From: a virus
Direction: 5' to 3' (one strand)
Virus record (IMG/VR): IMGVR_UViG_3300036768_000279
Span: 1-64,000 of that record
DNA: 64,000 bases
Shown: one piece after another, positions 22,431-36,290 of the stretch
How the letters are laid out: each line of letters begins with the position of its first letter
Numbering within the stretch: the stretch's first letter is position 1
Position numbers and translations under genes: made by a program
The notes under the pieces: model-generated
What the model was told of the DNA's origin: nothing
What the model saw: only the letters and a program-made list of their open reading frames with translations
Database searches by the model: none

Positions 22431-22921
22431 AATCTGAGCTTCCCAAGAAGCCCACACTGATCATTGATACCAGAGAGAAGACTCCCTGGGACTTTGAAGG
22501 TGATGACGAGTTCGAAGCCATTGAGCATACGAAGCTTGATGGCGGCGACTATTCTATTAAGGGTATGGAACATCTCATTGTCATTGAGCGAAAAGCTAAT
22601 GCCGATGAGCTATTCAATAACTTCACACAGAACAAGGATCGCATCTACGCTGAGTTTGAGAGATTGAAAGATCATAGAATGTGTGTCATTGTGATCGAAC
22701 AATCTTGCGAAGACGTATTCAATCCTAACTGCTACTATGTCAACAAGAGGGGCTTGAATAAGCGAGACTTCAAAATGCCTGTTGCTGTTGTAGCTTCTAA
22801 TCTAACAGAGTTGATGGTTAAGCACAACACTCATGTGATTTTTGGTGGCAACAAGGCCAAGGCTATGGCTCGCGGTATTTTGCTTCTGGCTTACAAGCTG
22901 CACAGACAGGGCAAACTGTAA
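22427..22921 (+). CDS. ERCC4-type nuclease
   Basis: 164 residues from GTG 22427 (a GTGA overlap with the previous stop). LIIDTREK with Asp14 and Arg16-Glu17, GGDYSI with Asp41, and IERKAN with Glu54-Arg55-Lys56 are the catalytic elements of the XPF/ERCC4 nuclease fold (GDxnERKx3D-like). No helicase or HhH part is attached. It would cut branched or flap DNA. Being next to the large terminase, it may help resolve replicative DNA before packaging; that link is inference. Confidence 0.8.
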   Translation: MKSELPKKPTLIIDTREKTPWDFEGDDEFEAIEHTKLDGGDYSIKGMEHLIVIERKANADELFNNFTQNKDRIYAEFERLKDHRMCVIVIEQSCEDVFNPNCYYVNKRGLNKRDFKMPVAVVASNLTELMVKHNTHVIFGGNKAKAMARGILLLAYKLHRQGKL

Positions 22922-24960
22922 TGAGTCTTTCTGCTGGACAAATCAGACGCATGAATAGCTCTGCTTGGAGGACGACCTTCAAGCGAGAGGACATCATGCG
23001 TGTGTTTGATGAATGTGGACCCGTACAATCCATTTATCATATGGCCAATTTCAACTTGGCGTGGTTTGTGCAAAAGGTATTTTGCAATCAGCAAGGCAAG
23101 CCACTCAAGCTTTTGCCATTTCAGCAAGTTATGTTGCAGATGTTGTGGTCCAAGAAGTTCCCAATGATTCTTGCCACTCGTGGTGCTGGCAAGTCATTCA
23201 TTCTAGCCTTGTACGCCTTGTTGAGAGCCATCCTCATTCCTGGCTCAAAAATCGTTATTTGTGGTGCTGGCTTCCGTCAGGCCAAGCTGGTATTCAAGTA
23301 TATCGAACAACTCTATGAAGCTTCGCCGCTTGTTAAGGAAGCTCTAGAGCAATGGGGTGGTCCAAAATATGGTTCTGACATGGCGACGCTTCGCGTTGGT
23401 TTGTCTGTCATTCAGGCTATTCCTATCGGGGACGGTGAAAAGATACGAGGTATTCGTGCGACCTGTCTGATCGCTGACGAGTTCGCTTCTATCCCCGAAG
23501 AGATTTTTGACATCGTTATCGCTCCGTTCACAGCCGTACACGCAAACCCAGAAGAGCGTGCCGCGAACGCCGCCTTCGTTAATCGTTTAATCGGACTTGG
23601 AGCACCACAAAACCTTGTAGAAGCTATTCGCAGCACACAAGGTTTTGGTAACCAGATCGTCATTTCGGGTACACCATCTTACAAGCACAACCATTTCTAT
23701 AAGCGTTATAGTGTGTACAAGATGTTCATTCAGTCGCGTGGTGACGCGAAAAACCTCAAGCGTGCCTTAGAAGAAAAGCATCTTGCGTCTACTGGTCGAA
23801 CTCAAGACGTTACAGAAGACGATTTGAAGAATGCTGAAAAGACGTGGCGTCACTATGCCATCTATCAGCTTCCGTACACAGCACTGCCAGAAAACTTCTT
23901 GGACGAAGACAATATTCGTTCTGACCGTGCCGCGTTCCCAAGACATCGTTTCGCGATGGAATACTTGGCTCAATTCCCTGACGATACGGACGGTTTCATC
24001 AAGAGATCGTGGGTTGAGCGTGCAACGCCGCGTGCCCCTGAAGAGCCGGTGTATGCAGAATTGTATGGCGATCCGCGTGCCATCTATGTCATGGGAATTG
24101 ACCCTGCTCGTTTTAACGACAATCTTGGTGTCGTTGTTCTCAAGCTTACGTCGCGTGGCAAAGAATTGGTATATTGCAACGCATGGGACAAGACAGAGTT
24201 CGGCGTGTCGGCTCAAAAGATTCGCGAGATTGTTAAGCGTTTCAATATTGCATACATCGCTATGGATACAGGCGGTGGTGGCGAGCCAATCCGTGAATGG
24301 CTTTGCAAGAAGGCCGATGGTGTAGCTCCTGAGGAATTCATTTGGGTTGTGCCCGACCAAATGGAGAAGTTTACTGGTGACATGACCGGAATGGGAGCAC
24401 CCGGCAAAAAGATCCTTGAAATGGTTGATTTTACGACCACATGGATTTCTCAAGCGGCCCACGGCGTTGCGTCTGACGTTGAACAATGCAACATTCTCTT
24501 CCCACATCGTGCTGACGAAACACGAGTTTTTGAACAATACGCACGTCACTTTGGTTTGTCTGATCTTTCAGATCGAGAAAAAGAAAAGCTACAACAAGAC
24601 ATTTGGGGTGTAGACGACTGGGACGCCGAACGTGCTTCGAAGACGTATGGCGAGAAATTCATGCCACGCATGGGAGTAATGCAACATATCAATGAGTGTA
24701 TCAATGAGATGTGTGCGATTATGCGTATGGTTAGCCCCAAGGGTACAGAAAGTTTTGAACTACCTAAGCTTTCAGAGCAACCAGAGGGACTTGACATGAG
24801 ACGCCGTGACCGTTGGTCCGCACTCATGCTAGCGAACTATGCAGCCAAGGTTTTCATGGGCACAGGTCACAAACCTAAGGCTGGCGTACCAAGATCCCGT
24901 ACCAGTAGTCGTGGATACACTAGCAGAAGTCGTCGCAGAGGAAGTGTTGGATATTTATGA
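22921..24960 (+). CDS. terminase large subunit
   Basis: 679 residues. ATRGAGKS at residues 85-92 is the Walker A loop and CLIADEFA at 182-189 carries Walker B and the catalytic Glu, forming the packaging ATPase. GIDPAR (Asp394), AMDTGGGG (Asp449) and DRWSALM (Asp630) give the acidic triad of the RNase H-like nuclease that cuts concatemeric DNA. The tail is Arg/Ser/Gly-rich. Length and motif order are typical of terminases of large phages. It starts on the last base of the ERCC4 gene's stop codon. Confidence 0.95.
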   Translation: MSLSAGQIRRMNSSAWRTTFKREDIMRVFDECGPVQSIYHMANFNLAWFVQKVFCNQQGKPLKLLPFQQVMLQMLWSKKFPMILATRGAGKSFILALYALLRAILIPGSKIVICGAGFRQAKLVFKYIEQLYEASPLVKEALEQWGGPKYGSDMATLRVGLSVIQAIPIGDGEKIRGIRATCLIADEFASIPEEIFDIVIAPFTAVHANPEERAANAAFVNRLIGLGAPQNLVEAIRSTQGFGNQIVISGTPSYKHNHFYKRYSVYKMFIQSRGDAKNLKRALEEKHLASTGRTQDVTEDDLKNAEKTWRHYAIYQLPYTALPENFLDEDNIRSDRAAFPRHRFAMEYLAQFPDDTDGFIKRSWVERATPRAPEEPVYAELYGDPRAIYVMGIDPARFNDNLGVVVLKLTSRGKELVYCNAWDKTEFGVSAQKIREIVKRFNIAYIAMDTGGGGEPIREWLCKKADGVAPEEFIWVVPDQMEKFTGDMTGMGAPGKKILEMVDFTTTWISQAAHGVASDVEQCNILFPHRADETRVFEQYARHFGLSDLSDREKEKLQQDIWGVDDWDAERASKTYGEKFMPRMGVMQHINECINEMCAIMRMVSPKGTESFELPKLSEQPEGLDMRRRDRWSALMLANYAAKVFMGTGHKPKAGVPRSRTSSRGYTSRSRRRGSVGYL

Positions 24961-25105: not shown

Positions 25106-27568
25106 ATGGCAAAACGCACCAACTCACGCAGTCAAGTATCGTCTAATAGAGCATCGCCTCAAGCGATGTTAGCCGCTACTCAACGCTCGAATGGCCGCGA
25201 GCCTCAAAAGTCTATGGGCTATTTTTATGGCAACATGGGCGACAGTATTGAGCGTCGCTACAGCGGTCTAGATGGTAGTCCGAATGCTGGCTTCGGTGGC
25301 GGTAGTGACTGGGGCCAAGGTACCCTCGGTGCCGGTACATCCTGGAATGCACAGGGTTACGGCAACTACTTTGGCACTGGTTTGCTCAATGGCTATGGTC
25401 GCATGTTCGGTGGTGCTGCCGCTGGTGGAGCGGCTGGTGGATTTACCTACCTAAAGCGTTTCTCTTCAAACGCCGCATTCAATCACCAGATCATTGCCCA
25501 ATGCCATATGGCATATCTGGGATACGGTATCGTTCGCAACATCGTAGATCTGTATGCAGACTTTGCCACCGAGGGCATCGATATCGAGCACCCGGACGCA
25601 TCGGTACGTAATTTCTACAGAACTTGGGCACGTAAGATTGGTCTTGAGGAACGTTGTCATAACATGTTCCTCAATCTCTTCGTTTCAGGCCAAACGTTCG
25701 TGCATCGTCGCTGGGCAACGCTTGATGATAATGAAAAGCGTGCTATGAAGCGTTCTGAGGCTTCTGAGAACATTGGCGACACTCTTGTGGTACGTGGCAA
25801 GTCCAAGGACTTGACGATTGAAGGCAGCGAAGAGGGGTTCATTGATTGGTTCCTTTCTAAGAAGGGGACGGAATACATCAATGATCTAACCAAAGCCGAG
25901 AAGGCTATTGGTAAAGCCCCGCCTTCTGCTACAGAGGAAAAGCTACCTAAGAACGAAGGCAAGCAAATTCCTTGGGGCTACACATTCCTCAATCCATTGC
26001 AGATGGAAATGCGTGGCCGCAAGATTAGTGGCGACTCTTACTGGGTTATGGCCCTTGATAAGCGAGACGCTCTTGATGTTGCTCGCGGACTTGGAATGAG
26101 AACGACACAGGACTTGGGGACAACTCAAGTCAACATTCCGCGTGAGTTCTTGTCACGTATAAATGCTTATCAAGGCCCCGGTGCTGGATACGCGGCTGAG
26201 ATCAAGCTTTCAAAGGAAGAGTTGAGCGTTGTTCAAGCTCCAGGCAAATGGGATTGGTTTGACTGGGCCGTGCCGTTTGTCTATCCATGTTTGCGTGCAT
26301 TGTATTTCAAGGACTGTTTGCGTACGATGGAAATTCGTGCATGTCAGTCTATCGTCAATGCCGTCTTTTTGTACAAGCTTGGCAATATGGAAAAGGGTAT
26401 GCCAGCCGAAGAAGAACACTTCGAGCGTTTGGCAGACATGCTCCAGATGCCTGGATCGGTGATGAACATTCTCTGGAACGAGAACATCACTGCGGAAGTA
26501 ATTCAGCCTAAGGTCGAGGGCATTTTTGATATCGACAAGCATAAGTCTGCTGATCATGACATCATGACGGCACTTGGCGTGCCGGAAGTTTTGATTGGCG
26601 GCGGTGGCGGCAACTTCTCAAATTCGTTCATTGCGGTTTCGACCGTACTTGAACGTCTTGAGTCGTATCGTAATCGCGTCAAAGACTGGATCATGGGAGA
26701 AATGAAGATCATCGCCGATGCGATGGGCTTCCAAAAACTCCCAACTATTCGTTTTGGCAGAACAAGTCTTCAAGATGAGAGGGCTTACCAAGCCTTCGTC
26801 ACTGGTCTATATGACCGTAACATTTTGTCTGCCGATACAGTTCTTCGTGAACTAGACACGGACGTTGCTACTGAAGTCGCGAAGATGCAAGAAGAGAATG
26901 AATTGCGTGGCGAGGGCGTCCTTGAAATGCGTGGGCCGTTCGTCAGACCTGACAATAAGGATGGCGTACCTCAACCTCCGTCACCGCCAGCCGCTCCTGC
27001 TGGACCGGGCGGAGCCAAGAAACCAAAGACTCCAAAGACGCCAAATGGTCGTCCGATTGGCACACCAACTGGCCCAACTGGCAAGCAGGGCAATCCTCGT
27101 AAGCCGAAGGGGCAGGGTGTTGCAAAGCTTTCGAAACTATTGGCACTACACGACGAGCTTTCGGAGCGTGGACGTAACGTATTGGCACGCCTTGAAGACT
27201 TCATTGGCGAACGTGTGCTTCGTGCTAAAGCCAAGGACAATCCTGGTCTCAAGCACTTGAAGCAACTCAAATATGAAGAACGTGAGCGTTTGGAGCAGAT
27301 GATTTATAACGTATTCAGTCACATGCCTGCACCAGACAGCGACTCTTCTTTGAGTGATGATTTTATTATCAACATGCTTCGTTCTGATGCATCTGAAACA
27401 GTTAAAGCTGATGTCTTGAACATCTATACGGACAAAGTTGCACAGTACAGCAAATCGTATGGCAAAGCTCCTACCCGGGAAATGCGTCGCCAATTTATGG
27501 TGTCTGCATGGACGCAAAAAGCCATTAAGGAACACATCGCTCAAAAACCTGATTTACTCAGATCATAG
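25106..27568 (+). CDS. portal protein
   Basis: 820 residues. The N-terminal 110 residues are Gly/Ser/Asn-rich and probably disordered. The core carries AHMAYLGYGIVRNIVDLYAD-type helices of phage portals. Around residues 490-560, ALGVPEVLIGGGGGNFSNSF, STVLERLESYRNRVKDWIMG and TIRFGRTSLQDERAYQAFVT are typical of the portal clip/wing region. The C-terminal 150 residues are Pro/Lys-rich then helical. The dodecameric portal sits at one capsid vertex and is the channel for DNA. Position next to the terminase agrees. Confidence 0.85.
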   Translation: MAKRTNSRSQVSSNRASPQAMLAATQRSNGREPQKSMGYFYGNMGDSIERRYSGLDGSPNAGFGGGSDWGQGTLGAGTSWNAQGYGNYFGTGLLNGYGRMFGGAAAGGAAGGFTYLKRFSSNAAFNHQIIAQCHMAYLGYGIVRNIVDLYADFATEGIDIEHPDASVRNFYRTWARKIGLEERCHNMFLNLFVSGQTFVHRRWATLDDNEKRAMKRSEASENIGDTLVVRGKSKDLTIEGSEEGFIDWFLSKKGTEYINDLTKAEKAIGKAPPSATEEKLPKNEGKQIPWGYTFLNPLQMEMRGRKISGDSYWVMALDKRDALDVARGLGMRTTQDLGTTQVNIPREFLSRINAYQGPGAGYAAEIKLSKEELSVVQAPGKWDWFDWAVPFVYPCLRALYFKDCLRTMEIRACQSIVNAVFLYKLGNMEKGMPAEEEHFERLADMLQMPGSVMNILWNENITAEVIQPKVEGIFDIDKHKSADHDIMTALGVPEVLIGGGGGNFSNSFIAVSTVLERLESYRNRVKDWIMGEMKIIADAMGFQKLPTIRFGRTSLQDERAYQAFVTGLYDRNILSADTVLRELDTDVATEVAKMQEENELRGEGVLEMRGPFVRPDNKDGVPQPPSPPAAPAGPGGAKKPKTPKTPNGRPIGTPTGPTGKQGNPRKPKGQGVAKLSKLLALHDELSERGRNVLARLEDFIGERVLRAKAKDNPGLKHLKQLKYEERERLEQMIYNVFSHMPAPDSDSSLSDDFIINMLRSDASETVKADVLNIYTDKVAQYSKSYGKAPTREMRRQFMVSAWTQKAIKEHIAQKPDLLRS

Positions 27569-27587: not shown

Positions 27588-28511
27588 ATGGACAAAGCTA
27601 CTGCCAAGATCGTCAAGAAGGGCGACAAGTGGTGTGTCTACTCCGAGGACGGTACTAAGAACCTTGGCTGTTCAAAGACAAGGGAAGGTGCCGTAAAACG
27701 CCTCCAACAGATTGAGTATTTTAAGCACACCAAAGGAAACGCAATGAACTACGAACAAGCATTTCGCAACATGGCCAAGTCTCTGTCTCCCGGAGACATT
27801 AAGCCTAACGAGATTGGTCAGGCCCCCGAGGCTCGTCCTCGTCAAGTGCATGTGCCTTCTGATTCGATCACGGAAGGATTCAGTAGCGGTAGCATTGCTG
27901 GACAAGGATCTCCTCGTCTTTTAGACAAGAAGGATCACTTCCCGGTCTTTACTGAGACCCAAGCACGTTCAAGCATGTCGCGTGCTATGCAGTTGACGGA
28001 AGTACCAGTTTGGTATAGCGGCTCTCTTGACGATCTTCGCAAGGAAGTCTATGCTGGCATTGCCAAAGCCCATCCTACACTAGTTGACATTGAAGTTAAC
28101 GTTCCAGCTTCGCGTATCGTTGCTCTATCTGATGGTATGATACCAGCCGAAACAGGCAAAAAGAGCATTGATAATCCCGCTGACGTACAGAAGAGCTTGG
28201 TTCCTCAAGTCAAGCGTCCGACGATTACAACAGCCGAAGTTGCCAAGGCATGCGAAAACGAACAAGCACGTATTGCTATTGCTGGCAAGCTGCTTGAATA
28301 TATTGAGCAGCAAGAAGCAGATATTGGCCACGCCAAGAAAATGGCTCAAACACTTCTCAAGAAGGGGCTATCGGCCGAACAGTTTGACGCTCTCAGCACA
28401 TATCTTCAGAGCGATATTCTACGCGAATTGCTGTACAATCAATCGACAGCCAATGCAGAAGCCTCTGTTGAAGATCGCCGTCGTGCCCTTCTTGATCGTT
28501 TGAAGCAATAA
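27588..28511 (+). CDS. head-region protein with a KGDKWCVYS motif
   Basis: 307 residues. The first 45 (AKIVKKGDKWCVYSEDGTKN, then LGCSKTREGAVKRLQQIEYF) form a small module that recurs at the start of many phage head proteins, where Cys/Trp and 'A..RL.Q.e.fKH' are conserved. The rest is partly disordered then helical (RIAIAGKLLEYIEQQEADIG). It lies between portal and protease genes, so a minor head or assembly role is likely. ATG 27588 is 7 nt after the late motif. Confidence 0.6.
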   Translation: MDKATAKIVKKGDKWCVYSEDGTKNLGCSKTREGAVKRLQQIEYFKHTKGNAMNYEQAFRNMAKSLSPGDIKPNEIGQAPEARPRQVHVPSDSITEGFSSGSIAGQGSPRLLDKKDHFPVFTETQARSSMSRAMQLTEVPVWYSGSLDDLRKEVYAGIAKAHPTLVDIEVNVPASRIVALSDGMIPAETGKKSIDNPADVQKSLVPQVKRPTITTAEVAKACENEQARIAIAGKLLEYIEQQEADIGHAKKMAQTLLKKGLSAEQFDALSTYLQSDILRELLYNQSTANAEASVEDRRRALLDRLKQ

Positions 28512-28520
28512 GAGGCAAAG

Positions 28521-29024
28521 ATGAATGCCAAGATCAACTCTCAATTGATGGCATTGCTGTCGGCGACGGTTGATCTACGTCTGTCTTCACACATGATCCA
28601 TCTTAATACAGTTGGGTCTACATCATATCAAAATCATCTACTAACACAGCGTGTATATGAACATTTGGATGGTGCTGTAGATGATATCGGCGAACACATT
28701 CGTACGCTTGGACTATTCATCCCGGACTCACCGAAGGCATTGATCTCTGGCTCATTCTTGAAGCCAATTGGCGACTATACAGACGCCTCCAATGCAATGT
28801 CAGCACTAGCAGATTCTTTGGCACAAATTCGTGACAAATGGAATCAGCTTTCTACCGATGCTACCAACGCAGAAGACCAACTCACTGCCGACTTCGCCGC
28901 AGGCGAAGGACGCGAGATTGCCAAACTTGCTTATCTTGTTTCAAGCACTGTTGGCAAATCATCTGCAAGCGTCATGTATAGCGATTCAGCTTTCAAACTC
29001 GTTGCGGAAAAGAAGGTGAAGTAA
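28521..29024 (+). CDS. Dps-like ferritin-fold protein
   Basis: 167 residues. HMIHLNTVGSTSYQNHLLTQ followed by RVYEHLDGAVDDIGEHIRTLG matches the core helices of Dps. His27, His39, Asp54 and Glu58 have spacings 12, 15 and 4, exactly those of the Dps intersubunit ferroxidase ligands (E. coli His51, His63, Asp78, Glu82). Dps proteins form 12-subunit shells, oxidise Fe(II) and in some cases bind DNA. A copy within the head operon may protect or help condense packaged DNA, or be a virion part. AGAGGCAAAG lies before ATG 28521. A histidine-rich protein is encoded two genes on. Confidence 0.75.
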   Translation: MNAKINSQLMALLSATVDLRLSSHMIHLNTVGSTSYQNHLLTQRVYEHLDGAVDDIGEHIRTLGLFIPDSPKALISGSFLKPIGDYTDASNAMSALADSLAQIRDKWNQLSTDATNAEDQLTADFAAGEGREIAKLAYLVSSTVGKSSASVMYSDSAFKLVAEKKVK

Positions 29025-29263
29025 TGGCAGCTCCCCTAAATGCTGGATTCAGGAATAACATCAACGTCATTCAACTTCGTTCGAGCGGCACGAGCTTGCA
29101 GCGTGTGACTGATCGTACAATTGGAGCATTGACTCCACTTGCTACGGATCCGCCGTCTCCTGCTGGCGTTTCGCGTTCAGTCATCAAGACTACCGTAGAT
29201 ACCGATGGTGGTGTTGAGCATCGTACACAATTGGCTGCGATCTACACAGAAGGTGGCAACTGA
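29024..29263 (+). CDS. small head-region protein
   Basis: 79 residues (MAAPLNAGFRNNINVIQLRS onward), Thr/Ser/Arg-rich without helices of note. Its start overlaps the Dps-like gene's stop and its stop overlaps the next start, so it belongs to the same operon. Probably a minor structural protein. Not recognised. Confidence 0.6.
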   Translation: MAAPLNAGFRNNINVIQLRSSGTSLQRVTDRTIGALTPLATDPPSPAGVSRSVIKTTVDTDGGVEHRTQLAAIYTEGGN

Positions 29264-29727
29264 TGTGGAAGCGTGAATATCTTGAACGCAATCGCGGCTT
29301 GCAGGCCGATGTGTTCAGCGACGCAATGAAGAGGGCCGCTGGTGCAAATCCTGTCATTACTGATAAGATTAAGCATGGTGGCGTTCCTGAAACTCCCGGT
29401 ACGGACATTGCTGATCCGTATGCTTCTCTTTTGAAGCCGAAGAATGTTCCTGTTTGGGATCATTTGCCAGCCACCCCAGAAGAAGAAGCTATCTATGCCG
29501 GTACGCACATTCATGCTGAATCCAATCCTCTCGGATTGCATTCTCATGTCATTGGTGGTAAATTGAGCGGTGGCCATAGTCACGGACCTCAGAACCGTTT
29601 TGGTGCCCACCATCATAAGAGTGGTGCCATTGAAATGTCGGTTTCTATCGACGGTGCCCACGTTCACGAGGCTGGCCGTAATCACCCAGACGGCGAGCAC
29701 GAGCACTGCCCGGAGAATTTCGGCTGA
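29263..29727 (+). CDS. histidine-rich structural-region protein
   Basis: 154 residues. The C-terminal half holds about 17 His in pairs and triplets (THIHAESNPLGLHSHVIGGK, GGHSHGPQNRFGAHHHKSG, GAHVHEAGRNHPDGEHEHCP), a pattern that binds divalent metals. Similar His-rich segments occur in phage head-maturation proteins near XkdF-like proteases. Closeness to the Dps-like protein raises the idea of shared metal handling, which is inference. Clear coding, no enzyme motif. Confidence 0.65.
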   Translation: MWKREYLERNRGLQADVFSDAMKRAAGANPVITDKIKHGGVPETPGTDIADPYASLLKPKNVPVWDHLPATPEEEAIYAGTHIHAESNPLGLHSHVIGGKLSGGHSHGPQNRFGAHHHKSGAIEMSVSIDGAHVHEAGRNHPDGEHEHCPENFG

Positions 29728-29740
29728 GTCTAACCCGCTT

Positions 29741-29750
29741 TTAGTTTATT
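29741..29750 (+). promoter_or_regulatory. late promoter motif (variant)
   Basis: TTAGTTTATT, one base from the consensus. ATG 29761 follows after 10 nt, and TATACG lies in between. Confidence 0.5.
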
Positions 29751-29760
29751 GGTATACGGG

Positions 29761-31659
29761 ATGAAATACAAGACCCAGCTAGTTTCTAAGGCGACACTGC
29801 TACAACCTCAGACAGATAAGTATAAGTCTGTGGCGTCGTCGCTTAAGGGCAAATACGGCTTTGATCTAAAGCCGCAAATGGATCTTTTGTATCTCGAATC
29901 ATGTCTCGTTTCTGCTGGTGTACGAGTCGGTGTAAACGATAACGATGACATCTTCACTCGCGAAGAGTGCTGGGCTGCTCGTCAGACTCCTGTGTTGAAG
30001 CCTTTTAATTGGCAACATCAGGACAAAGACATTGTGGGTGTTATCTACACGGTTCAGGCTCGTGACCTGAATGGAAACGTTCTTGACATCGATAGCGAGA
30101 CGGTGCCGGACACCGACTTTGATCTTTGGACAGAAGCAGTCATCTTCCGTTTGATTCATCCAGATCGTGCCCGCGAGGTTGAAGCTCGTTCGAAGACTAA
30201 CGATCTGTTTGTGTCTATGGAAGCATGGTTTGACGACTACAGCTATGGGCTGTATGGCAGCAATGGTCTAGCCAAGATCGTCGCTAGAAATGAGAAAACC
30301 GCCTTCCTTGATAAGCACTTGCGTGCCGCCGGGGGAGTCGGGAAATACCATGACCCTGAGTCGGGTCAGGATATGCGGATTGGTCGCGTCCTACATTCTA
30401 TTACGTTCGGCGGATGTGGTTTGGTAGACCATCCAGCAAATAAGCGTTCGGTAATCACAACTGTTGATGTGGTTCCGAACACAAGTGAGCAAGATGAGAT
30501 CGAACTCTTTCTGCAAAAAGTAATGGAATCGGAAGCACGTCCTTCACAGGAGTTAGCCGTAATGAACACTCAAGCGAATGTAAAGCCCGACGAAATCAAG
30601 ACGGCTATTGAATCCGTACTTGACAGTCGTGAGCAGGCGGCAGCTAAGGCAGCCGCAGAACAAGCCCTACAGGCCCGTGCAGCCACAGCAGAAGCAATGA
30701 GCAAGGAACTCGAAGCTAAGAATGCTGAGCTGAACAAGGCACTCGAAGTTAAGAACCAAGAAGTCAAGTCTTTGAATGACCAGACTGCTGCGTACGACGC
30801 CGCCGTCAAGAAGTTGATCGAAGAGCATGTGACTGCTGGTGCAACTAATGACGTACCGCCGGAGATCGCGAAGATCGACGCCGCTAAGACAGGCGAAGAG
30901 GCTTTCAAGGCCAAGATCGCTTGGATTCAGAATTCGCTCGCTTCTCTCCGCACTCGTGCTGCTCGTGCAGCCGAACTGGAAGCAAAGCTCGCCGAAGCCG
31001 AAATGGTCGTTCGCGAGCAGGACGTGCGTTCGCTGTTGGGCGATGTAATGTCAGAAGAGGCGGTTGAGACGTTTGTGGCACATGCCGCAACGCTGGACGC
31101 CGAAACTTATTCGCATTGGCGTGACGAGAAGGAACTGATGGTTATCGAAATGGCTAAGGCCGCTAAGAAGGCTATGGATGAAGAAACCGATCCGAACGAA
31201 GCGGAGCCGGATGCCGATGAGGATGACGCTCCGTTCAAGAAGGGCAAAAAGAATATGAAGAAGGACGCAAAGGCCAGCAATCCGTTCGCGGCTCTGTTGG
31301 CAAAGTATCGTTCAGAGAGTCAGGCCGACGCAGACACCTCAAAGGTGACTAACGGCGACCCTCTGATTAATCATCCAGGTGGAGAAGGCATCAAGAGTGG
31401 TGTCAACCCTGGACAATTGAAGACACCGCGTCACAAGATCGCTGGTGGTGCCGCCGGGAACGATCCTTTGAAGGTGCTGGAAACAGCGAAGCCTAAGAAT
31501 GGCGTTTCTCTTGCCGGTGCCTCTCAAGCTGGTGGCGAGGGTGAGAGTGTGAATCCGTTCCGCGTGCTCGCGGGATTGGTGACAGACTCTACGCAAGAGA
31601 GTGAAGACAGTGAAACCAAGCCTGAGGCCAAGAAGCCGGGCTTTGATCCCGTTCAGTAA
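29761..31659 (+). CDS. capsid maturation protease fused to scaffold
   Basis: 632 residues from ATG 29761; the TTG at 29749 is part of the promoter. The N-terminal 240 residues look like a prohead protease: PFNWQHQDKDIVGVIYTV with a catalytic-type His, LFVSMEAWFDDYSYG with the active Ser, and GGCGLVDHPANKRSVITT at the end. Residues about 270-370 and 390-450 are Ala/Glu/Lys coiled coil, the scaffold part around which the shell assembles. A disordered tail follows. Protease-scaffold fusions are known in phages, and the protease later removes the scaffold. Confidence 0.8.
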   Translation: MKYKTQLVSKATLLQPQTDKYKSVASSLKGKYGFDLKPQMDLLYLESCLVSAGVRVGVNDNDDIFTREECWAARQTPVLKPFNWQHQDKDIVGVIYTVQARDLNGNVLDIDSETVPDTDFDLWTEAVIFRLIHPDRAREVEARSKTNDLFVSMEAWFDDYSYGLYGSNGLAKIVARNEKTAFLDKHLRAAGGVGKYHDPESGQDMRIGRVLHSITFGGCGLVDHPANKRSVITTVDVVPNTSEQDEIELFLQKVMESEARPSQELAVMNTQANVKPDEIKTAIESVLDSREQAAAKAAAEQALQARAATAEAMSKELEAKNAELNKALEVKNQEVKSLNDQTAAYDAAVKKLIEEHVTAGATNDVPPEIAKIDAAKTGEEAFKAKIAWIQNSLASLRTRAARAAELEAKLAEAEMVVREQDVRSLLGDVMSEEAVETFVAHAATLDAETYSHWRDEKELMVIEMAKAAKKAMDEETDPNEAEPDADEDDAPFKKGKKNMKKDAKASNPFAALLAKYRSESQADADTSKVTNGDPLINHPGGEGIKSGVNPGQLKTPRHKIAGGAAGNDPLKVLETAKPKNGVSLAGASQAGGEGESVNPFRVLAGLVTDSTQESEDSETKPEAKKPGFDPVQ

Positions 31660-31672
31660 GGAGTAAGAAACT

Positions 31673-32158
31673 ATGGCACTACTACCTAGTCGTCAAGTTT
31701 TCCAGACATTTGTCGATGGCACTTGTTCTGGTGTGTCTGAACGCGGCGGTATCATGTCGTTCGTTCCCGGTGTTGCAGGGCTTGTAGCCTATGCAAACGC
31801 TGCTGCTGTCTCTGGTCAGCTTGTTCAACCACTTGGTCTCTTGATGGACGATGTTGAGAATCTCAACAACTACAACCATCCTGAGTACCGTCAGCGTAAC
31901 GTTGTTACGCAGGGCAGCGTGGTTGGCATCTGCACAGAAGGTGAATTCTGGACTGACTTTGTGGAAACGACTGGACCGGGCAATATCCCGGTTGGTACGT
32001 ACGCCCCAGGGGACGTTCTCTATCTCGCAGACAACGGCAACGTTTCTCGTAACAACGGAACGTTCAACAATGGTGCTACTGCGAAGCGTTATGTCGTTGG
32101 TAAGGCCCTGTCTGCCCTTGGCAGCGACGGATTCCTAAAGGTCCGTATTGACCTCTGA
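31673..32158 (+). CDS. head decoration protein, copy 1
   Basis: 161 residues behind AAGGAG (31658-31663). SERGGIMSFVPG, LLMDDVENLNNYNHPEYRQR, VVGICTEGEFWTDFVE, GTYAPGDVLYLADNGNVSRN and GFLKVRIDL all recur in the same order in the protein at 34673, so the two are paralogs. Position right before the capsid gene, size and Gly/Asn-rich beta character suggest a capsid-stabilising decoration or fibre-base protein. Same codon preferences as the capsid gene, which implies high expression. Confidence 0.7.
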   Translation: MALLPSRQVFQTFVDGTCSGVSERGGIMSFVPGVAGLVAYANAAAVSGQLVQPLGLLMDDVENLNNYNHPEYRQRNVVTQGSVVGICTEGEFWTDFVETTGPGNIPVGTYAPGDVLYLADNGNVSRNNGTFNNGATAKRYVVGKALSALGSDGFLKVRIDL

Positions 32159-32170
32159 TAGGAGCATGAC

Positions 32171-33208
32171 ATGAATTTCCAACGTTATCCGCAAGAAGCA
32201 ATTGATGCACTGCGTGCTACGGCTCACGCCGATAGTGAAGTGCGTGCAAAGGCCCAGAAGGCGTTTGCTGCCGAGTTGCAGTGGCCGCTCCGTCAGGGCG
32301 TGTTCGATCGTGACAACCTCGGTGGAATCTACGAAAAGCAGGTTCTCGCACCGGGTGCCCAGGCAAACTACCCGCTTGACTTCGTGAAGCCGGGTGATGA
32401 AGATCAGTTCATCGCCTTCGCTATGCCGAAGCAGGGTCGCGTTCCTGAGCGTCACGTTGAGGGAGACGAGTTGTGGGTTCCGACCTTCCAGATCGCGAAC
32501 TCAATCGACTGGTCTTTGAAGTATGCCAAAGAAGCACGTTTCGACGTTATCATGCGTGCTATCCGCGTGTACGAAGCTGGCTTTGTTCGCAAGATCAACA
32601 GCGACGGTTGGCGTACCATCCTTGGTGCGGCTGATGGCCGTGGCATGGTAGTGACGGCAAACGGATCGGCCCCGTTCACTGGATCGACGCTTGTTCCTAC
32701 TGCGGCTGCTGGACAGTTCACCAAGGAACTGATCAGCCGCATGAAGACGGCGATGACTCGTGGTGCTGGTGGTAACGGTAACGCAGGTCGCTTGACCGAC
32801 GTTTACCTATCCATGGAAGCCATGGAAGACATTCGTGCTTGGGACGTGGATGAGATCGACGAGTTCACTCGTCGTGAGATCTTCGTTTCGAAGGAATACG
32901 GCCTAGCTCAGATCTACGGCGTTGTTCTGCACGAAATGACTGAGTTTGGTGAAGGACAGGAGTACGAGAACTTCTTGAAGACAACTCTTGCTCGTTCGCA
33001 CCAGACTGTCAACTCTGTCACGTTGAAGGAATACTGCATTGGTTTGGACTTGAGCACGATGGACTCATTCGTGATGCCGATTCGTGAAGAACTCCAGACC
33101 TATGAAGATCCGTCCCTCTACCGCGAACAGCGTGCGGGCATCTTCGGTTGGATGGAGCACGGCTTCGCCGTTCTCGATCCTCGCCGCGTGCTGATCGGCG
33201 AGTTCTGA
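32171..33208 (+). CDS. major capsid protein
   Basis: 345 residues. Called from position (after protease-scaffold and decoration genes, before the connector), length, and composition typical of an HK97-fold shell protein: an N-terminal helical arm (MNFQRYPQEAIDALRATAHA), a long spine helix region, and beta-rich P-domain (VYLSMEAMEDIRAWDVDEID, QIYGVVLHEMTEFGEG). Strong TAGGAG site before ATG 32171. Codons are strongly biased (AAC, GAC, TTC, CGT), as expected for the most abundant protein. A strong terminator follows. Confidence 0.85.
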   Translation: MNFQRYPQEAIDALRATAHADSEVRAKAQKAFAAELQWPLRQGVFDRDNLGGIYEKQVLAPGAQANYPLDFVKPGDEDQFIAFAMPKQGRVPERHVEGDELWVPTFQIANSIDWSLKYAKEARFDVIMRAIRVYEAGFVRKINSDGWRTILGAADGRGMVVTANGSAPFTGSTLVPTAAAGQFTKELISRMKTAMTRGAGGNGNAGRLTDVYLSMEAMEDIRAWDVDEIDEFTRREIFVSKEYGLAQIYGVVLHEMTEFGEGQEYENFLKTTLARSHQTVNSVTLKEYCIGLDLSTMDSFVMPIREELQTYEDPSLYREQRAGIFGWMEHGFAVLDPRRVLIGEF

Positions 33209-34348: not shown

Positions 34349-34689
34349 TGCTAGTTCACGCTCGAACCCCCCGCGGCATTCTCTACCTGAACAATGAACC
34401 AATTTACGGTAGAGAGACTGGCCGCGATCCTGCCGATGTCTCGTTCGCAGTATATGAGGCATGCAAGGATTGTTTGGAAGACGCAACATACCGCGAAGGC
34501 TATTTGCGAGAAAAGTTTGGATGGACTCAAGGCGAAATCGCATTTACTTACGGCGAATTAAGATGGTTGCCGGAAAGTACACTTCGTAAAATCGCTAAAG
34601 GCATGGGCCTTAATGAGGCTAAGCGTACAACTTCAAAGCAACTAGTTGAAGATATCAAAAGAGCACTAAGGGATGTCGTTAAGACCTGA
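34348..34689 (+). CDS. hypothetical connector-region protein
   Basis: 113 residues (MLVHARTPRGILYLNNEPIY, then SFAVYEACKDCLEDATYREG, then FGWTQGEIAFTYGELRWLPE). The middle has a helical, acidic segment and the end a helix (TSKQLVEDIKRALRDVV). Located among the connector genes and overlapping the next gene by 17 nt. Function not recognised. Confidence 0.6.
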   Translation: MLVHARTPRGILYLNNEPIYGRETGRDPADVSFAVYEACKDCLEDATYREGYLREKFGWTQGEIAFTYGELRWLPESTLRKIAKGMGLNEAKRTTSKQLVEDIKRALRDVVKT

Positions 34690-35245
34690 AAGACAGACTC
34701 AACAAGTTAACATTGACTACCAGTGTCCATGGACACAGGAGCGTGGTGGTATTTTGAGTTGGGTACAGGCTTCTGGTATTTACTTCGCAGAATACGCCTT
34801 CAATCCTAGCGGTGTTCATTCGATTGGAATTCAGCTAAACGATGTTGAGAATGTGAATATGACACGTCAGCCATTTCAGCAATACATTCGCAACATCGAC
34901 ATACCGATGGCTAGAGTTGGCGTAGCTACTCAGGGAGATTTTTTGACTGACTGGGTTTATCCCGTTGGTACAATCAATCCGGGAGATTTGGCGTATGCTG
35001 GCCCAAGCGGAATGATCACAAATTCTGCGTCTTTTGGCGGCGAAGTGGTTGGCAAATTCTTGAGCGTTCTAACACCCAAGCCTCATACTGTTACATTGCG
35101 TGGCATGGGATTCTCACGCCAGTATATCGACACTACCAAACCTTCTAAGCCACTTATCTGGGAAAACAATCCAGCGGATGCGATCCGTTTGGCGACGCCC
35201 GGATTCATTAAGGTACGCATTGATATGGGAGCGAGTCTAAGATAA
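34673..35245 (+). CDS. head decoration protein, copy 2
   Basis: 190 residues. Shared blocks with the protein at 31673 are ERGGILSW, LNDVENVNMTRQPFQQYIRN, VGVATQGDFLTDWV, GTINPGDLAYAGPSGMITNS and GFIKVRIDM. It carries an extra stretch near the C-terminus (TVTLRGMGFSRQYIDTTKPS). The two are therefore duplicated and diverged; one may decorate the shell and the other a special site such as the neck. It overlaps its neighbours at both ends. Confidence 0.65.
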   Translation: MSLRPERQTQQVNIDYQCPWTQERGGILSWVQASGIYFAEYAFNPSGVHSIGIQLNDVENVNMTRQPFQQYIRNIDIPMARVGVATQGDFLTDWVYPVGTINPGDLAYAGPSGMITNSASFGGEVVGKFLSVLTPKPHTVTLRGMGFSRQYIDTTKPSKPLIWENNPADAIRLATPGFIKVRIDMGASLR

Positions 35246-35784
35246 TGGTACAGATCACGCCCAATCAAGACTTCTCTACAGCAAGCGGAATTCTTAATTC
35301 TCCGTTTATGGAAGCTGTCTATCACTCCTTTATGAGTGAAGCTTTTGTAGATCTCGGACGTTCTGTGACGTTCCATCTGCCCCCCATCAAGGAGCAAGAC
35401 GTTCAGACTCAATCCCAAGCCGCCCCACAACAATACAATCCTTTCTTTTCAAGAGTGCCTGTGCCTGCCACGAATACACGCAATACTGGCTACAAAGTTA
35501 CGCCGCGTGACGTGACTTACAAAGCACAGATTGTCATTGGTCCATTGAGCAATGACAAGAGATTGCAGGGTATGGGTTGGCTCAATGAAAACGAAGCCAT
35601 GATCACTGTCGTGATTGAGGCTCTTGAACACGTAGTCGCCGCTCTTGCCGTTTCCATTGAGGGTCGTAGATACACCGTTGTCGAAACGAGACCGATTGGC
35701 TTTTCTGTACGCAGATACTTGATGGTTAAGCTACGTGCTATTCAGGAAACAGAAAACCCCTCTCCTGATAAGGTGGTAGGATGA
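35245..35784 (+). CDS. putative head-closure or neck protein
   Basis: 179 residues (MVQITPNQDFSTASGILNSP onward), mixed beta with a central DVTYKAQIVIGPLSNDKRLQ and VEALEHVVAALAVSIEGRRY part. Size and place between adaptor and tail-terminator-like genes fit a neck or head-completion protein. No family match can be named. It ends in an ATGA overlap with an HNH gene. Confidence 0.5.
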   Translation: MVQITPNQDFSTASGILNSPFMEAVYHSFMSEAFVDLGRSVTFHLPPIKEQDVQTQSQAAPQQYNPFFSRVPVPATNTRNTGYKVTPRDVTYKAQIVIGPLSNDKRLQGMGWLNENEAMITVVIEALEHVVAALAVSIEGRRYTVVETRPIGFSVRRYLMVKLRAIQETENPSPDKVVG

Positions 35785-36290
35785 TTACGCAAGTCAAGCA
35801 ATGTTCTAGATGTTATGGCTACAAGGATCTATCGGCTTTTCCTCAGAGCAAGAACGCAAAGGATGGCTTATATTCTTGGTGCAAGGTGTGCAATACAGCT
35901 AGTACGCAAAAATACTACGCCGCTAATCGTGATGCTGTCAACGTCAAGCGTCAAGCTAATAAACAAAAGAACAAACAAGACTGGCGTGCGTTTTTTATAC
36001 AACTCTATGGGGAGATGCCTCAATGCTCTATTTGCTTGAAAGCATTGGATTGGAATGCTGATGCAGAAACAAACTGTGGTACGGTAGTAAACTGGGATCA
36101 CCGTCATGGCAATCATGCGGCACATGTGAAGCCTGCCAATTGGCTCCATGGGCACTTATGTAACGAAAAGAACCAAGCTATTTGGCATTCATTTGATTTT
36201 GGTATTTTGTGTAACTACTGCAATGGTTCGTTACCAACCAATAATAGAATTCAGTGGCTTGAACAAGCCCTGAAGTATGCGAGGCAATAA
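35781..36290 (+). CDS. HNH endonuclease, endonuclease VII-like
   Basis: 169 residues. An N-terminal zinc finger (QCSRCYGYKDLSAFPQS...WCKVC) is followed by CSICLKALDW, VVNWDHRHGNH with the catalytic Asp-His-x-His, and ILCNYCNGSLP. The order C..C, DHxH, LCxxCN is that of the treble-clef HNH nucleases of the T4 endonuclease VII type. It overlaps both neighbours (ATGA and TAATG). It may be a mobile homing gene or a packaging-related Holliday nuclease; the many HNH genes nearby favour the former. Confidence 0.75.
   Translation: MITQVKQCSRCYGYKDLSAFPQSKNAKDGLYSWCKVCNTASTQKYYAANRDAVNVKRQANKQKNKQDWRAFFIQLYGEMPQCSICLKALDWNADAETNCGTVVNWDHRHGNHAAHVKPANWLHGHLCNEKNQAIWHSFDFGILCNYCNGSLPTNNRIQWLEQALKYARQ

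Follow-up and report, generated by a model that had tools for sequence, protein, structure and literature searches.

We have found in a phage head operon a gene predicted to encode a Dps-type miniferritin whose C-terminal tail ends in a short tag, one that also occurs on proteins encoded at the same place in related phages. This tag suggests, without proving it, that the Dps may be packed into the virus particle. Dps is a small iron-handling protein that in bacteria normally protects the DNA against oxidative damage. The sequence-only reading of this DNA, which had picked out the gene, missed the C-terminal tail, and it is this tail that ties the Dps to its slot among the head genes and is the part worth following. 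The window analyzed here is the whole 64 kb stretch, comprising the first part of a 147,927-bp virus record.

The gene occupies positions 28521..29024 on the + strand, exactly the open reading frame that the earlier reading had given, and its product is 167 amino acids long. The protein matches Pfam PF00210 (Ferritin) at 1.5e-5, over the curated cut-off, phrog_3636 (‘DNA binding protein’) of PHROGs at 8e-15, the NCBIfam Dps family PRK09448 at 4.7e-8, which is under the curated equivalog cut-off of that family, and solved Dps chains at values down to 1.4e-6. Structure prediction from the single sequence reached a pLDDT of 42, and we used instead an AlphaFold2 model made with an alignment that included 14 viral Dps (monomer, pLDDT 88, pTM 0.82). 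The modeled monomer is a four-helix bundle with an additional BC helix, its helices spanning residues 3-29, 35-62, 71-76, 89-116 and 120-144; the Dps domain with helices A, B, BC, C and D takes up residues 1-144 (28521..28952, + strand). When the model was compared with the PDB using Foldseek, the top matches were all Dps, with an rmsd of about 1.6 Å. The similarity goes well past what chance would give, and, judged by four independent libraries and the model, the product is a Dps-type miniferritin. The Dps identity and helix pattern that had been read from the letters are thus borne out by profiles (PF00210, phrog_3636), AlphaFold2 and Foldseek, and structure prediction, proposed at that time as a check that a different fold would have failed, gave the four-helix bundle. 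In fold and in helix order, including the BC helix, the protein is like the bacterial Dps MrgA of B. subtilis (2chp), HP-NAP (4evd) and PA0962 of P. aeruginosa (8ff9), and it has the four ferroxidase ligands and the core domain size of bacterial Dps and miniferritins (PF00210). A single-sequence search among viral contigs found no relatives of the protein, and neither did a profile scan of bacterial genomes.

The four ligands are His27 (28599..28601), His39 (28635..28637), Asp54 (28680..28682) and Glu58 (28692..28694), all on the + strand and at the 12-15-4 spacing previously claimed for them. They are invariant across 15 aligned viral Dps and essentially invariant more widely, being present in all of the 105 other viral Dps that cover each position. 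The ferroxidase center of Dps is, however, defined by five residues (PMC6675082). The claim that the ligands are complete consequently stands for four of the five, since in our alignment of 106 viral Dps the fifth canonical ligand, an Asp, is replaced by Gln43 (28647..28649, + strand). In E. coli Dps we take this fifth ligand to be the Asp four residues past the second His. Across the 106 viral sequences the place is held by Gly in 57, Lys in 17, Glu in 13, Gln in 9 and Asp in 5. Beside the first His, Leu28 replaces a Trp that is found in 98 of the 106. As predicted from the sequence, ferroxidase activity of the phage Dps with Gln43 is likely but not assured. In comparison with bacterial Dps, the phage protein therefore has Gln43 for the fifth acidic ligand and Leu28 for the conserved Trp; it also lacks an N-terminal lysine arm, carries a tagged C-terminal extension and is encoded in a phage head operon.

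The location in a head operon, as claimed before, is confirmed by PHROGs, with the terminase large subunit (TerL; 22921..24960, phrog_2 at 2.5e-35) and the portal protein (25106..27568, phrog_2739 at 2.7e-9) upstream and the major capsid protein (MCP; 32171..33208, phrog_2522 at 1.7e-5, 60-97% identical in 27 viral contigs) downstream, all on the + strand. The closer placement between portal and protease-scaffold holds as regards the run of head genes and otherwise needs amending: a 307-aa gene (27588..28511, + strand) intervenes on the portal side, and the putative prohead protease/scaffold (29749..31659, + strand) is so called from its position. The 307-aa gene, which is conserved in close relatives and has a weak match to phrog_3684, and a small gene that is conserved in relatives (29024..29263, + strand) form the left and right borders of the slot in which the Dps gene lies. 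A ribosome-binding-like AAGAGG at 28510-28515 precedes the Dps start, which lies 9 nt past the stop of the upstream gene, and the Dps stop overlaps the ATG of the next gene (TAATG).

Several other genes of this region have features of their own. The product of 29749-31659 gave no convincing match for a prohead protease or scaffold in Pfam, PHROGs or the PDB; across 12 relatives it has an invariant His90 and Ser156 and a conserved N-terminal domain, and by its sequence it is possibly an undescribed prohead protease family. Directly downstream of the right border gene, positions 29263-29727 of the window encode a His-rich protein in which HxH motifs occur at least six times (HIH, HSH, HSH, HHH, HVH and HEH), and which looks metal-binding from these motifs and is kept in most relatives regardless of Dps. 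Paralogous small proteins (31673-32158 and 34673-35245) flank the capsid gene region, with cross-matches of about 30-41% in relatives, and the first of them has a very weak match to the lambda head decoration protein D (E 0.075). Among the structural genes, 35781-36290 encodes a protein with a zinc finger and an NWDHRHGNH-type motif, HNH/endonuclease VII-like, for which Pfam returned nothing above cut-off.

Scans with the terminase, portal and MCP provided 28 other contigs that cover the slot. Their gene order is ERCC4-type nuclease, TerL, portal, the counterparts of the 27588, 29024, 29263, 29749 and 31673 genes, and MCP, with some of the small genes lost or diverged in more distant relatives. 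By BLASTP and Dps profile, Dps is absent at the slot in all 28, the MCPs of which are up to 97% identical. Among 12 whole records searched using two family profiles, Dps was found only in the window's own, and the 11 from relatives, several of them fragments, had none anywhere. The border genes are 2-25 bp apart in the nearest relatives (MCP 97% and portal 84% identical), and the slot is empty in the closest, L004 and L005, so that its function must be dispensable. Because the Dps gene is missing from relatives in which the border genes are intact and closely spaced, it is accessory and no conserved head component, and its head-operon position is specific to this phage within the group. The insertion into the slot is precise. 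The suggestion that the Dps is a virion part is contradicted in its obligate form, as no relative's head operon has Dps.

The 27588 and 29024 genes enclose a cargo slot of variable content. Relatives encode in it proteins of 42 aa (L017), 46 aa (L018), 62 aa (L008) and 74 aa (L063), proteins of 130-147 aa with a DUF6582-like domain (L006 and L009), and one of 361 aa with a DUF5824 domain (L014). These proteins have none, one or several N-terminal domains before a tag and/or a lysine run; the tag reads FSxxAFxLVAQ in several, and the lysine run ends nearly all, often after NPF-x-x-P-x-KPTDG. The wider stretch from the portal to the 29749 gene is a hotspot for mobile genes, since in relatives it contains a TnpB-like gene (Cas12f1-like TNB domain, 2e-21) and HNH-like genes (L077:3298-4437, L077:6018-6737, L078:5921-6637 and L057:4137-4649).

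The Dps protein of the window ends in YSDSAFKLVAEKKVK. Its C-terminal extension, GKSSASVMYSDSAFKLVAEKKVK (28953..29021, + strand; pLDDT about 50), has a net charge of +3 and lies beyond the Dps profile, past which the protein runs for 21 residues, as compared with at most 5 in the 105 other viral Dps. The tail terminates in YSDSAFKLVAE followed by KKVK, and the first of these segments (28977..29009, + strand) matches the tag of the relatives' slot proteins both by pattern, [FY]SxxAFx[LI]xA[QEK], and by profile. The likeness was seen by eye, and pattern and profile were defined afterwards, so the statistics given here carry some selection and are not blind. With a profile made from six relatives' sequences, the Dps itself being left out, the Dps tail scores 16.8 bits, which is attained in 3 of 200,000 cases when the tail is shuffled and in 4 of 20,000 when the whole protein is. 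Over 800,670 six-frame positions of the phage group, the tail is the best non-training match, bar one antisense chance match (17.9), while the best scores are 10.8 among the 105 other viral Dps and 12.3 among 1,055 ORFs from Dps-bearing loci. A search for the tag as a DNA pattern on both strands of 20 whole records (2.9 Mb) gave six matches, every one of them in the slot, against one for the reversed control. Because the Dps was left out of the profile and there were no tag matches outside the slot, coincidence is an unlikely source of the resemblance.

The tail of the Dps is not identical to those of the relatives. The first tag position is Tyr in the Dps versus Phe in the relatives, and the NPF-x-x-P-x-KPTDG stretch found in most slot tails is absent. 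A search of the whole collection for the tag followed by an Asn/Asp-like codon returned only known slot proteins and out-of-context matches. The corresponding search for KPTDGxKKK returned mostly an unrelated protein, read as DNA polymerase, together with known slot proteins, and this KPTDGxKKK tail is therefore confined to this phage group. We also considered the N-terminus of the 27588 protein (MNYEQAFRNMAK) as a second copy of the tag and rejected it, with profile scores of at most 4.5.

That phages carry Dps is known, and many do, so its presence alone is ordinary. Our profile scan confirmed at least 584 viral contigs with Dps, and phages with Aeromonas, Proteus, Cronobacter, Lactobacillus, Synechococcus and Bacteroides as hosts carry the gene. 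From a survey of gut phages came the proposal that phage Dps serves oxygen tolerance (PMC8008677), and both Dps and Mn-catalase genes of phages have been proposed to raise that of the host (PMC8008677; PMC6669764). The Dps of S-EIV1, Aeromonas LAh/4_4572, Proteus Privateer, Lactobacillus Semele and relatives, and ‘Gratiaviridae’ are tailed-phage genes of the phrog_3636/phrog_858 group, as is the present one. In contrast to it, wherever the gene neighborhood of an annotated phage Dps was read, it proved to be a DNA-metabolism or other accessory region and not a head operon (including PMC6669764), and none of the viral Dps compared has the tail. The idea that unrelated phages repeatedly have Dps in their head operons was tried and rejected, as the 80 close viral Dps contigs commonly show late structural neighborhoods that are not head-specific; the main neighbors there are T4-like cytidyltransferase polyproteins and virion structural, head-closure-like and tail-sheath proteins. 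A late-gene neighborhood is thus recurrent for phage Dps. In many uncultured T4-like contigs (L026-L051 and L083-L162), a standalone Dps lies beside cytidyltransferase polyproteins (phrog_3041/395), phrog_1645 virion structural or head-closure-like genes.

The explanation that we favor, with confidence that stops just short of evenly balanced, is that an accessory Dps was acquired into the cargo slot, was fused to the tag of the slot and is targeted to the prohead, where it would protect phage DNA. The phage would have taken up Dps into the variable slot by in-frame joining to the slot's own C-terminal signal, with Dps replacing the usual cargo and being translated together with the late head genes. 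The product would assemble into a dodecamer, as predicted, the model itself being of the monomer. The tag would then draw slot products, including the Dps, into the prohead scaffold in the manner of T4 internal proteins. Inside the head, or when injected with the genome, the Dps would consume Fe2+ and H2O2 at intersubunit sites, which would prevent Fenton damage to phage DNA and so benefit the phage.

We read the slot in terms of packaging because it lies beside head genes, its cargo changes, and one common tag and lysine-rich ends are found on its products. The T4 internal proteins are alike in combining diverse cargo, one short common signal and lysine-rich DNA contact (PMC3012670). As with them, the slot tag is a short conserved signal on otherwise unrelated cargo, and the slot is dispensable and variable between close relatives. 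The T4 signal takes cargo into the scaffold core experimentally, whereas the slot tag is mostly C-terminal and different in sequence, and its targeting is what we infer. Independent support for a link to the head comes from Dps-like domains in three BFVD proteins named prohead protease (A0A6J7XDU5, A0A6J7WPK9 and A0A6J7WIS1), which connect the Dps fold with head maturation in uncultured tailed phages; these entries (333-763 aa), known from names and structure-match scores only, differ in having the domain inside one long protein. Counting against our explanation are the missing fifth ligand, the Tyr in place of Phe, the lack of the KPTDG stretch, the dispensability of the slot and the position of other annotated phage Dps outside head operons. 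More tentatively still, the phages studied may form a group with a swappable head-operon cargo slot and a common capsid-targeting tag, one member of which would load an iron-oxidizing Dps nanocage that protects the genome before and during delivery.

The strongest rival, which we think quite possible though on the doubtful side, makes the Dps a cytoplasmic auxiliary protein that lowers free iron and peroxide in the infected host, with the tail as a functionless leftover of an earlier slot gene. The gene would then have its place only because insertions are tolerated in the slot and expression from it is late and strong. This is in keeping with the role in host oxygen tolerance proposed for phage Dps and Mn-catalase (PMC8008677; PMC6669764), with the accessory status of the Dps, and with the HNH-like and TnpB-like genes that the same region also takes up in relatives. 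Left unexplained is why the tail should have retained SxxAFxLVA, a slot-only tag. The tail could also be an ordinary DNA-binding arm, like the C-terminal one of mycobacterial Dps1, with a resemblance to the tag that arose by convergence on a short amphipathic helix with lysines. The net charge of +3, the KKVK end and the lack of a lysine-rich N-terminal arm would all fit, but same-composition shuffles of the tail match the tag profile in only 3 of 200,000 cases, an arm of this kind is absent from the other viral Dps compared, and the slot specificity of the motif would go unexplained, which makes this account improbable.

A role as an obligate structural part of the phage head, to which the position between portal-side and capsid genes and the tight translational coupling on both sides might point, is very hard to reconcile with the relatives. 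Dps is not conserved with the head operon, being absent from 28 of 28 related contigs that have the same operon, with MCPs up to 97% identical, and from the whole records, several of them fragmentary, of 11 relatives searched with two family profiles. Scarcely credible, finally, is an assembly chimera in which a bacterial or other phage Dps was joined to the contig by error. The gene is seen in one record only and its protein has no close relative in viral contigs, yet the frame is intact, start and stop are coupled at both borders, and the tail matches the slot of relatives, which is not expected from a random join.

Phages often carry Dps genes, and the only purpose so far put forward for these, help to the host, is a guess. 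Here, a Dps bears a tag peculiar to one cargo slot in a head operon, which connects it with the virion in a concrete way that experiments can test. Should prohead targeting by the tag prove true, cargo loading by such a signal would extend beyond the T4 family, the tag would help to find further packaged proteins of uncultured phages, and at least some phage Dps would have the task of protecting DNA that is packaged or injected. If the cargo-slot reading of the Dps is true, the virions of this phage would be equipped with an antioxidant miniferritin of their own.
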